DNA of 64,000 nt from Arachis hypogaea. Its lineage: Eukaryota; Streptophyta; Magnoliopsida; Fabales; Fabaceae. Both the position numbers and the translations under genes were made by a program. The stretch covers positions 114,585,905 to 114,649,904 of the forward strand of contig NC_092053.1 in NCBI RefSeq assembly GCF_003086295.3, in the 5' to 3' direction. The notes under the pieces are model-generated. The model saw nothing but the letters and a program-made list of their open reading frames with translations. It made no database searches and was not told the DNA's origin. Of the stretch, positions 29,912-63,533 are shown piece after piece (position 1 is the first letter of the stretch; each line of letters begins with the position of its first letter).

Positions 29912-30747
29912 TAATTAGTAAGTCACATTGATATAATATAACGGATTTAAACTATATATCAATCATGAAAGGTTTAAGAGTGCCAAAGTAAGTAAAAGGT
30001 TATAAACAAAGTTTAATCTTTATATATTAACAATGTAAAAAAAATTTATACAGTACAATTATCTAATTAATTAAATTATATATTTAGATAATTTTTTAAA
30101 TATCACATTTAAAAATTACTCTTGTTAATATATCAATATACAATGATTATCTTACGTGAAAATTACATTCGTATTTTATTTTTCCGTGAAAAAAAAAAAG
30201 AGCGCTAAAAAATCTAAAGGAAGAATGATTTGTAATTTGTAGTGTGTATGATTATTGTATGGCAAGTTTTATGATATAGATAATAACTTAGCATTCACAT
30301 GTGTAGATATGTGATAGTAATCTATGGTTATATCAGGTGGTATAGAAAGGAGACATATTGTTCAGTGTGTCAGAGACGTTGCAGAAAAAATTCAATAAAA
30401 CCATGTGAGAAAATTTCTAATTAAATTGGATAATAAAATGTTATGATGAGTAATTAATTTTGGTTCATTACGAGCCTAATTTTTGGCCTTTTTTTCGTTC
30501 TTAGACAAAAAAAATTTTTTGTGTCATAGGCTAAAAAATATAACATACATTAACATTATTTTTACTCAATATGCAAAAAACCCAAAAATCACTCCAACTA
30601 TAATTACTCATAGAAAAAATAAAAAAAGGATCTGGCTGCCTCTACTACCCACTTCTAAGTTTAGGCTTTCATTCAATTAGAATAGTCCATGTACATAAAT
30701 TTGATATTGAAACAAGTAATTATGTCACATCCAAAAAAAAAAAAATA

Positions 30748-30748
30748 A

Positions 30749-30814
<66 letters not shown>
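30748..30814. repeat. (AAT)n microsatellite, about 22 units
   Basis: A pure AAT run after an A-rich tract. At the homologous site in the right arm (~61,438-61,456) only about six units remain, so this tract expanded, or its partner contracted, after the arms separated. Confidence 0.95.
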
Positions 30815-31890
30815 CATTTTAAGCAACATTTAATTGAATCTGCATGTGTTATATAAAATAGTTTATAGTTGATGTTTAGTAATATTAATTTAATGAATTA
30901 TTTTAAATTAAAATAAGAATACTAATAATAGTGAATCAAATAATAAAGTTTGATTTGTTTTATATTTATTTGGATATCTAAAAACACCAAAATATGTAAC
31001 ACTTCCAAAAAAAATGATTATTCTCTTATAGAGTTGCAAATTATATATTTTATTAAATATTATATGAACAAATTATTATACACATAGTATAAGCAAAAGA
31101 AAAAAAAAGAAAATACATAATGGTGAATACATATTAAAATATTATCAGAATACACTATTGTTAAGATATAATATAAATAAAAAATTATGTATGTATGAAT
31201 AAATACTAAATGTGTACGCTTAAACATTATTTTGATGAATTTGCTTACATGATTTAAATTACGAATATTAATTAATTTTTTATAAATTTTTAATTTTTAA
31301 AAAAATTATTTAAAAATATCTATACACTATACCTAACCAAAAATTTAAAGACGAAGAAGTTATTAAAAAATTATTATAAAAAAATATTTATTACTATCAA
31401 GTGTCAACCTAGACAAAAAATTGTAATGATAGACTAATAATTACAGTATCTATGTTTGTAACCTGAAATTGTTATTATAGCACATGCTCGAATGGAGAAG
31501 TTTGGATACAGAATAATAAAGAATCCTTTTAGGCATACCTGAAATTAAAAGGCATATTTATACAAATTTTTGATGATATATTTAATAGAAGCTAATTTTG
31601 ATGTGCGTATAGTTGCTTTGCACGTGCGTTTAATTACGTAATACTACAGGAGAAAAAAACTAATTTTTAAAGAGACCACGTGAATGTCATCTAAAAGAAC
31701 GGATGTGATTGCAAGACTATATAAAATATTTTGCATTGTCTATGCATGAAAATTAAACTAATGTTTAACAACAGAAATATACGAAAAATTAGATATCACA
31801 GGCATTCCATTTTGGAAAACCACTTTAAAGAAAACAAAACCCAATGGATTCATCATGAACTGGCCTGAGTGGCTGAGACTAAGAGCATGC

Positions 31891-60100: not shown

Positions 60101-61550
60101 CTAACTTTCTAAGCCATCATAACCTTCTAAAACTTATATCACTTAAACAAACATATCAAGGTATCGAATGAAATAAAAGTGAATTAAATTTGGCAATTTT
60201 AAGTATAAAACATATTTTCTTTTTAAAAAATTAGCCACAATTAGAAGGAAATTCACAAAAGCATGCAATCTCAATGAATAAATGCAACATAAGTTGTTAA
60301 AAATTCCTCTTTTCGGATAAAAATTCATCATAGAATTATGTATTTATCAGCATGCTCTTAGTCTCAGCCACTCAGGCCAGTTCATGATGAACCCATTGGG
60401 TTTTATTTTCTTTAAAGTGATTTTCCAAAATGGAATGCCCATGATCTCTAATTTTTCGTATATTTCTGTTGTTAAACATCAGTTTAATTTTTATGCATCG
60501 ACAGTGCAAAATATTCTATATAGTCGTGCAATCACATCCATTTTTTTAGATGACATTCACGTAGTCACTTTAAAAATTAGTTTTTTTCTCCTGCAGCATT
60601 ACGTAATTAAACGCACGTGCAAAGTAACTATACGCACATCAAAATTAGCTTCTATTAAATATATCATCAAAATTTTGTATAAATATGCCTTTTAATTTTA
60701 GGTATACCTAAAAGGATTCTTTATTATTCTATATCCAAACTTTTCCATTTGAACATGTGCTATAATAACAATTTCAGGCTACAAACATAGATACTGTAAT
60801 TATTAGTCTATCATTACAATTTTTTGTCTACGTTGACACTTGGTAGCAATAAATATTTTTTTATAACAATTTTTTAATAACTTCTTCGTCTTTAAATTTT
60901 TGGTTGGGTATAGTGTATAGATATTTTTAAATAATTTTTTTATAAATTAAAATTTTATAAAAAATTAATTAATATTCGTAATTTAAATCATGTAAGCAAA
61001 TTCATCAAGATAATGTTTAAGCGTACACATTTAGTATTTATTCATACCTACATAATTTTTCATTTATATTATATCTTAACAACAGTATATTCTGATAATA
61101 TTTTAGTATATATTCACCATTATGTATTTTTTTTTTTTTACTTTGCTTATACTATGTGTATAATAATGTGTTGATATAACATTTAATAAAATATATAATT
61201 TGCAATTCTATAAGAGAAGAATCATTTTTTTGGAAGTGTTACATATTTTGGTATTTTTAGATATCCAAATAAATATAAAACAAATCAAACTTTATTATTT
61301 GATTCACTGTTATAGTATTCTTATTTTAATTTAAAATGATTCATTAAATTAATATTACTAAATATTAACTATAAACTATTTTATATAACATACAGATTCA
61401 ATTAAATGTCGCTTAAAATTATTTCTAACTAACTGTCTTATTATTATTATTATTACTTCTTTTGGAACATGACATAATTACTTGTTTCAATATCAAATTT
61501 CTACAAATGTATTATGCTAATTGGATGAAAGTCCAAACTTGGAAGGGGGT
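57153..61550 (-). other. Right-arm spacer mirroring the left-arm upstream region
   Basis: AT-rich, no supported gene. It contains the mirrored LTR remnant (~59,900-60,349) and short versions of the two microsatellites. The mirror of 30,815-35,146, contiguous up to the CACTA-like insertion at 61,551. Confidence 0.65.
59900..60349 (-). repeat. Old LTR remnant in the right arm
   Basis: Mirror of 31,891-32,400; on the minus strand it begins TGATAAATA at 60,349. Same order of CATTCGATACCTTGAT and the GCGTA-type words, with more decay of the CpG sites (for example GTGCATACGC). Confidence 0.5.
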
Positions 61551-63145
61551 CGCTACAAGATTTTTGTTTATTTGTGGAGGTTTTTTTCTTATTTGTGGAG
61601 GTTTATAACCCCCACCAAATGGTTTGTGTGAGTTTCCAAAACTCCCAAAATTTGAGGTGCCACGAGGTCTTTTATGGGGGGTTTTTAAAAACCTCCACAA
61701 TCTATTCAGTGGGGGATTTTGTGTGTATTTAGTGGAGGTTTTATATTGAACTTTTGTGGCAGTTTTAAATCACTTTTGTGACAGTTTAAAACCCCACAAA
61801 TTGACTTTTCAATTTGACACAAATTAACTATTTTGTGAGGTTTTCAAACCTCCATGAACCTTGTAGTTATTTATTTTTAATTTCAAATTATTCATTAATC
61901 TCAATTTAAAATCCTAAATATTCATTAATCTCATCTCATTTACATATTCTCAAATTAAAAATTTATTTTTTAATATTAAAATTTAAAAACTAAATCTTTT
62001 ATAACACAATTCCTCAATATAAGACATACTTCTAAATATCCATAACCTTCATTAGCTTCTCCGCCACAACCTTCATTAGCTTCTCCGCCACAACCTTCAT
62101 TAGCTACTCCTTATATTCAGCAGAGATGCAAATATCCATAACGCGAAAATGACTGAGCTTTATATGTGTGTATAGGGTATAAATAAAGAAATTCCATATC
62201 ATTTTTGATAAGTGCAACAATCCTCGTTCTTCTTCTCTGAAATTAGAACACAATCCGAAAACAAAATTTCACAGAAAAACAAAAACAAAATAATTGAAAC
62301 TTGCATTGAAACCCCCCAAAACAATGCTCTGCTCGTTCTTCTTCTTTGAAATTAGAACACAAGTTTGACACACACACACACACACATTTGCCCAACCATG
62401 GCCATAGTCTATTTAGCCAATAAACAATTACAGCAGAAGCAGATAAATACCACTTTGAATCTCACCATACACATATATTCAATCCAAGCAACTTTTGAAT
62501 CCCTAAAATCATCCATTGTTAGCTACATGATGACATTAATATGGCAAAAAACCAAAATGCGCATAACATGGTTAACCCGTTTGTCCACTAAAGAAAACGG
62601 CACAAAACAAAAGCTAAACATGACCAAAAATAAATAAATAAAAAAAAAGAAGAAGAAACAGCAATACGAAAATAGTTGAGAAAAAAGAAAGAACACATTT
62701 AGGAAAATCGAGAAGTAGAGCGGATGGAATTTGCAAGGATCTGATATGTGAGGAGTTTACTTAGCAACCATTCTGGCGATGAAATCCTCGTAACGGATCT
62801 TACCATCGGGGCCAACATCAACCTCCCTGATCCAGAAGTTCTCGATCCAGAAGCTCTCTACCGCAACAGACACGGCAATGGTGACGGTGCCGGTGGTGGA
62901 AACGGCAGCGAGAACGGCAGCAAGAATGGCGTATGTAGAAAACTTAGGGTTTCATTCTCTTTCAGTAAACTCGGTGCCTCACATTTTGGGAAAAAAAAAA
63001 GAGAAAATAATGTTTTATTCCAAAACTTTGAATTTTAATTAATTATGAGTTGAGGTTTTTTAAAATGCCATAAATAAAATATATTATGGAGGTTTTTAAA
63101 ATCTCCACCAAAATACTCCCTCAAATCAATATTAATCTTGTAGTG
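61551..63145. mobile_element. CACTA-like non-autonomous element, 1.6 kb, inserted in the right arm
   Basis: The ends are CGCTACAAG (left, one base off CACTACAAG) and CTTGTAGTG (right). Flanking trinucleotides are GGT and GTT; the left palindrome arm shows the uninterrupted site (~30,635-30,650), which proves the insertion. Subterminal regions carry GTGGAGGTTT(T) repeats and their complements (61,575-61,860; 63,050-63,110). No transposase. It carries a calmodulin-like fragment. Confidence 0.85.
62757..62860 (-). pseudogene. Captured calmodulin C-terminal fragment (EF-hand 4)
   Basis: On the minus strand the frame reads IREVDVGPDGKIRYEDF then IARMVAK and a TAA stop at 62,759-62,757. This matches the fourth EF-hand and C-terminus of calmodulin in order and spacing. 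In the 12-residue loop, Asp1, Asp5, Gly6 and Ile8 are kept, loop residue 3 is Gly instead of Asp, and residue 12 is Asp instead of Glu. Upstream (62,861-62,935) the frame stays open but is no longer calmodulin-like (Ala/Val/Thr-rich). The fragment lies wholly inside the CACTA-like element and has no start, so it is a transduplicated exon end rather than a gene. Confidence 0.72.
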
Positions 63146-63533
63146 GTTAGTAGAGGCAACGAGGTCCTTTTTATTTTTTCTGTGAGTAATCATAGTTGGA
63201 GTGATTTTTGGGTTTCTTGGATATTGAGTAAAAATAATGTTAATGTATGCTATATTTTTTGGCCTATGACACAAAAAAAAAAGTTTTTGTCCAAGAACAA
63301 AAAAAGGGCCAAGAATTGGCCCCTAATGAGCCAAAATTAATTACTCATCATAACATTTCATTATCCAACCTAATTAGGAGTCTCCTCACGTGGTTCCATT
63401 GAACTTTTTCTGCAACGTCTCTGACACACTGAACAATATGTCTCCTTCCTATACAACATGTTATAACCACAAGTTGCCACCACATATCTACACATGTGGA
63501 TGCTAAGTTACTATCTATACCATAGAACTTGCC

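Follow-up and report, generated by a model that had tools for sequence, protein, structure and literature searches.

A Mu killer-like inverted duplication of the Ulp1-bearing half of a Mutator-like transposon in the peanut genome

Our analysis concerns a large palindrome in a 64,000-nucleotide stretch of the peanut (Arachis hypogaea) genome (the window; contig NC_092053.1, positions 114,585,905 to 114,649,904, assembly GCF_003086295.3). The palindrome is an inverted duplication of the non-transposase half of a Mutator-like transposon (MULE), a half that carries a terminal inverted repeat (TIR) and a truncated Ulp1-type protease gene, and its layout is that of Mu killer, a well-known example of a natural inverted duplication that silences the transposon from which it derives. 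A preliminary description of the locus, made from the letters alone, had taken it for a duplication of host genes, a reading that the present one replaces. We consider it probable that the locus is an old non-autonomous MULE derivative in which the left half of the element is present twice and the other half is absent, most likely through one event on one element.

Results

The genome compared comprised 440 contigs (2.56 Gb), with the window on the contig here called C18. Self-comparison of the window recovers two mirror arms, 30261-40661 (arm A) being mirrored by 40670-63533 (arm B) when a nested long terminal repeat (LTR) retrotransposon and a CACTA-like insert are excluded (Table 1). Self-BLAST gives the inverted pairs 30647-40000/61550-52262 (9,435 columns, 91.4% identity with gaps counted) and 30258-30663/63536-63133 (86.8%), and 40002-41353 is its own mirror at 92.6%. 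With the inserts excluded, the arms differ at 662 of 10,252 aligned bases (6.5%; 487 transitions and 175 transversions; Kimura two-parameter distance 0.068). The differences are unevenly spread along the arms (variance/mean 2.3 for bins of 200 bases), 47 of them falling in the outer 400 columns; no recent gene-conversion tract was seen between the arms, the longest identical run being 105 bases against about 98 expected. The near-symmetrical, diverged inverted duplication is genuine. Near-palindromes are a known class of assembly and read artefact, and that general experience speaks for an assembly or hairpin-read origin; we regard such an origin as extremely improbable, because the arms are separated by these 662 substitutions, which are biased to CG and CHG sites, and because insertions are specific to one arm.

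The geometry given in the preliminary description, mirror arms around a 22-bp spacer with two later insertions, is borne out by the self-BLAST and the arm alignment. Its spacer, 40662-40683, is correct, and its outer limits, 30261 and 63533, coincide exactly with the terminal GGCAAG of both TIRs. The two checks that it proposed, a self-comparison and an arm-to-arm alignment, recover both mirror arms and show them to be 6.5% diverged.

Each arm begins with a TIR of about 270 bp, followed by a gene with RNase-H1 N-terminal (RNase-H1-N) and Ulp1/C48 protease domains that is cut at the palindrome centre. Opposite-end copies in closer relatives match the left-end query only to about 272-274, which marks the terminal inverted repeat, and arm B matches the left end past this shared part (query 1-406); both outer TIRs are therefore the same element end. 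The outer 443 bases of arm A have at least 40 matches, while the inner 262 bases match 11 places outside the window, ten of which end exactly at 40661 and one 7 bases short. Ten of these 11 copies were retrieved, with 20 kb for each. In the copy at C20:6.0 Mb, the one in which domains were tested, the far end codes on the opposite strand for FAR1 DNA-binding (PF03101, E 1.5e-18), MULE transposase (PF10551, E 7.8e-26) and SWIM domains. This transposase protein is matched by tblastn in nine of the ten retrieved copies, the source of the query being counted among the nine, and has no tblastn match within the 20 kb of the tenth, C13_136. The window has no match to the transposase protein, nor to the right halves of the three of the ten copies that were tried. 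Because of the TIRs, the transposase at the far end and the Ulp1-type gene in the arm, we assign the family to the Mutator-like transposons; its two genes are convergent, and the palindrome consists of the Ulp1-bearing half in duplicate.

Gene-like exons are contained in both arms, in keeping with an inverted segmental duplication of host genes later stabilised by an insertion, as the preliminary description had it. We nevertheless reject this reading as very improbable: the TIRs, the dispersed copies with target-site duplications and the transposase of the relatives identify the arms as a half-transposon doubled on itself, and the LTR pair of the supposed stabilising insertion is less diverged than the arms. 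A search of one arm stretch against a plasmid collection gave no match.

Near-identical, fuller copies of the element are found at C20:6.0 Mb, C3:133.8 Mb and C16:133.6 Mb (L015-L018, L021-L022). In these copies the long inverted stretches at the termini, about 500 bp as far as the retrieved sequence extends, share 98.7-99.6% identity, and the copies are likely to be recently mobile family members. At C10:4635905-4664977 (L009, L010) a 10.4-kb deleted copy apparently lies inside a larger family copy, in opposite orientation to it.

The truncated gene retains an RNase-H1 N-terminal domain (PF01693, E 3.1e-16 in Pfam) and, in exon-joined peptides, the Ulp1 catalytic domain PF02902 (E 1.5e-11 in arm A and E 1.8e-15 in the C20:6.0 Mb copy). 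It is cut just past the catalytic-cysteine motif (NDCGIWV); the centre of the palindrome falls within the exon that encodes Ulp1, an exon that in every one of the ten retrieved copies runs on past this point. Most of the spacer is family sequence in which arm B simply carries on. In most copies of the family the sequence runs GGGTTGC(T/C)CAATGGATGGAGCTGTCACA, apart from minor variants, and the continuation of arm B, if a small deletion is allowed, perhaps reaches TCACAT before meeting arm A. The two gene copies are broken at most about 25 bp apart, facing each other. Since they read toward the centre, and each is truncated there, they stand tail to tail and not head to head as had been claimed. 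We find one gene, at about 35.1-40.66 kb (RNase-H1-N to Ulp1), where eleven exons of two genes had been described; neither these nor a reported difference of 8 in 144 bases in the last exon was confirmed.

Both gene copies are decayed. Six exon stretches show 48, 34 and 47 differences between the arms at codon positions 1, 2 and 3 respectively, in 680 positions of each kind; because there is no third-position excess between them, they give no sign of coding constraint since the arms split. Such an excess is present in three comparisons of the C20:6.0 Mb copy with other family copies. Stop codons occur in the aligned exon stretches of both arms, some of them possibly intronic, and arm A also shows a frame change there. 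Arm differences of the C-to-T type affect 114 of 828 CG and 100 of 994 CHG sites, above the 271 of 5,096 CHH sites. This context bias fits that of long-methylated DNA, and the residence in silent chromatin put forward in the preliminary description is consistent with the CG and CHG excess over CHH, in a comparison that has no unmethylated control.

Two later elements interrupt arm B. The LTR pair of the nested retrotransposon differs at 46 of 1,684 positions (K 0.028, against 0.068 for the arms), with 7 transversions in 1,684. Because both the LTR K and the transversion rate lie below the arm divergence, the element would have arrived only within the last quarter to two-fifths of the time since the palindrome formed, provided that its arms were identical then, an estimate that fails if two already different copies were fused. 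On the same proviso, it came after most of the arm divergence and so offered no rescue at the start, which weakens the earlier suggestion that this insertion, there labelled FIDEL-like, was a stabilising break. On the minus strand within this retrotransposon, 45422-45529 matches the Rfam family snoR71 (46.2 bits; gathering threshold 40), either by chance or as a captured snoRNA. The second insert, which we take to be CACTA-like from its termini, has the flanks GGT/GTT, with no clean 3-bp duplication.

Target-site duplications are common in the family. Among nine element pairs with both ends, seven match at nine of nine flank bases, with one of the seven lying in a TAA repeat; in C8_35 six of nine match, and C13_115 lies within a TA repeat where the flank limits are unreadable. 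With the flanks of the window's palindrome as queries, no empty or homoeologous site was found. The 64 bp beyond its right end match only themselves, and repeat follows from about 63598 on; the left adjoining stretch has no match elsewhere among the 40 candidates scored of 3,161, a weak absence. Just left of the palindrome, at about 29380-29914, lies a very high-copy short repeat with inverted ends.

A second palindrome of the family occupies C20:109196484-109200349 (L049). It is 3.87 kb long, has left-type TIRs at both ends and mirror arms, is flanked by a perfect 9-bp duplication (ATGTAACTA) and has no transposase match. Its arms are 4.5% different over 873 inner bases, with an outer stretch 13.6% different by BLAST. 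The centre lies elsewhere in the element, corresponding to arm A positions 31799/32227, and in the family tree its arms are sisters (bootstrap 95) placed away from the arms of the window. Because of this different centre and separate tree position, same-end palindromes arose at least twice, independently, in this MULE family.

Table 1. Coordinates of the palindrome, its parts, inserts and flanks (position 1 is the first base of the window).
Feature	Positions	Strand	Remarks
Arm A	30261..40661	+	left end of Mutator-like transposon, 10,401 bp
Arm B	40670..63533	-	mirror copy of the same transposon end, ~10.36 kb with both inserts left out
Outer TIR of arm A	30261..30530	+	~270 bp, starts GGCAAGTT; other members of the family have it at both ends
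Outer TIR of arm B	63264..63533	-	left-end type like arm A; matches left-end query 1-406
Decayed transposon gene, RNase-H1-N to Ulp1/C48 catalytic	35078..40661	+	cut just after NDCGIWV; approximate exon limits
Arm B copy of truncated Ulp1-type gene	40670..57191	-	tblastn of family exon stretches; stops; interrupted by LTR element
Unpaired centre, 22 bp	40662..40683	.	arm A breaks after GGGTT; arm B continues to TGGATGGA
Nested LTR retrotransposon	41358..52259	.	in arm B, ~0.67 kb from centre; flanks GCAAC/GCGAC, 4/5 match
CACTA-like insert (presumed)	61551..63145	.	termini CGCTACAAGA / TCTTGTAGTG; break in arm alignment
Left 9-bp flank of palindrome	30252..30260	+	TTATTGTAT
Right 9-bp flank of palindrome	63534-63542		TTAGTTAAT; 6/9 vs left flank

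Elsewhere in the window, shifted self-matches reveal a tandem array at 5156-6210 that repeats about every 106 bp. A direct repeat pair of 995 bp (10066-11060 and 23990-24984; 43 differences) is likely to represent the LTRs of another retrotransposon.

Discussion

Because both breakpoints coincide, we favour the origin of the palindrome by one event on one element, most likely during a transposition burst. In this event the left TIR and the Ulp1-type gene up to its catalytic cysteine would have been doubled back to back, leaving out the rest of the gene, the FAR1/MULE transposase and the right TIR, all absent from the palindrome. One possible route is gap repair after excision, with both sides of the gap copying a single end of the transposon, and another is a fold-back template switch; we infer that the half-copies then became joined at points no more than about 25 bp apart. 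Afterwards both gene copies would have decayed, accumulating substitutions as methylated DNA does, and the LTR and CACTA-like elements would have entered arm B.

The arms are sisters in a concatenated 13-row tree (support 95.8/98) and in six of seven single-segment trees (supports 44-100), a 341-bp segment giving no resolution. Several observations weigh against the single event. The flanks of the palindrome match at six of nine bases only, where at least six would be met in local flanks with a chance of 0.041, and because of this its insertion as a single mobile unit is unproven. C3_136 is a deleted element that has a perfect target-site duplication; with it included, the approximately unbiased (AU) test returns 0.735 for arms A and B together, 0.312 for arm B with C3_136 and 0.0195 for arm A with C3_136, and the shared derived sites number 14, 12 and 5 respectively of 3,709. 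Over 31191-32990 the arms are 0.060 and 0.058 from C3_136 and 0.067 from each other; in the outermost 380 bases arm B is 0.061 from C3_136, against 0.119 from arm A, and a 9-base gap in an A-rich run is common to arm B and C3_136. The outermost TIR stretch is about 12% diverged between the arms, above the body of the element, as it is in other family comparisons. A foreign right TIR in arm B was considered and dropped, the outermost stretch being the fastest in those other comparisons too.

These observations bear on an alternative in which two separate, related MULE copies, lying in opposite orientations at the same or a nearby site, were fused tail to tail by a deletion. Because the flanks are unmatched, and because of the C3_136 distances, this fusion keeps some weight: the arms and C3_136 make up a nearly three-way split in which arm B with C3_136 is not rejected, and at C10:4.64 Mb opposite-orientation copies adjoin or nest in one another. 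We still judge it unlikely, since both breakpoints fall within about 25 bp in an element of at least 12 kb, which independent breaks would rarely do, and the pairing of the two arms is still the best topology. A 713-bp deletion is common to both arms and C3_136 (in an alignment with Q and C3_37, C13_115 being partly gapped there). The sequence comparisons suggest that a single short burst of copying gave rise to both arms and to C3_136, and that the arms as each other's closest relatives are favoured, and only favoured, once C3_136 is included.

The locus matches in layout Mu killer (Muk) of maize, an inverted duplication of a deleted MuDR that silences MuDR (PMC3440606, as far as its excerpted text goes). 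In both, a single end of the element supplies the two TIRs, the neighbouring gene is present as two partial copies that meet in the inverted duplication, and the middle of the parent element is lacking; the parent in each case has two convergent genes, of which the palindrome carries one end (PMC3440606). The halves of Mu killer reach 1.298 kb into the transposase gene mudrA, and its centre resisted sequencing (PMC3440606). The peanut halves, by contrast, carry the Ulp1-type gene without transposase sequence, in arms of about 10.4 kb that are 6.5% diverged, and their centre is present in the assembly. Neither other Mu killer-like loci nor peanut MULE palindromes were found among the open-access titles and abstract openings listed, which does not establish that they are absent.

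There are reports of Ulp1-bearing MULEs in Arabidopsis, grapevine, melon and rice; a review published in 2026 ties Ulp1-carrying VANC (KIU) genes to anti-silencing (PMC2528002, PMC13317346, both in excerpt). The peanut family shares the Ulp1 protease domain with the KAONASHI and KIU-type MULEs. In the KI elements Ulp1 lies in reverse orientation, and in the peanut family the Ulp1 gene is encoded on the strand opposite to that of the transposase; unlike the Arabidopsis KI elements, which are described as non-TIR MULEs (PMC2528002, PMC13317346), the peanut family has TIRs of about 270 bp or longer. It is possible that the Ulp1-type accessory gene is a counterpart of the anti-silencing KIU/VANC genes of the Arabidopsis Vandal elements. 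The peanut element AhMITE1 is also accompanied by 9-bp target-site duplications, in AT-rich targets; its 25-bp TIR starts with GGTGGATACTACAATG and not GGCAAGTT, and it is a different family (PMC9277781, in excerpt).

The architecture shared with Mu killer (PMC3440606) raises the question of whether the window's palindrome is a working silencer, in which read-through duplex RNA would give rise to small RNAs and to trans-silencing of family members. Inward transcription from the side of arm A would cross the centre and yield a self-complementary RNA. Folding of the RNA from the central 989 nt gives -794 kcal/mol where 20 shuffled versions average -249, a result that simply restates the palindrome, and near-identical copies elsewhere that look recently mobile would provide targets. 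Nevertheless, the LTR insertion has left no more than about 0.7 kb of arm B next to the centre, the match between the young copies and the arms is about 75-87%, which would make these copies poor targets, and the palindrome does not include the transposase gene. Moreover, the read-through hairpin model is disputed even for Mu killer, in which silencing accompanied short antisense transcripts initiated inside the locus, transcripts that the authors set against the earlier model of read-through from a flanking gene (PMC3440606). We therefore look on a working silencer in the window as doubtful. More speculative still, with perhaps a slender chance of being right, is the idea that the family repeatedly makes same-end palindromes, of which uninterrupted ones would act as self-made Mu killers pitted against the Ulp1-type gene, the copy in the window being a disarmed fossil.

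Our analysis adds two palindromes of one MULE family in another plant, both with readable centres and the one on C20 with a perfect target-site duplication. Their junctions make the models of origin, whether gap repair, fold-back or fusion of two copies, open to test, and silencing of the family by such palindromes becomes a question that small-RNA and methylation data can address directly. The layout of Mu killer can thus recur within a transposon family and persist for a long time.

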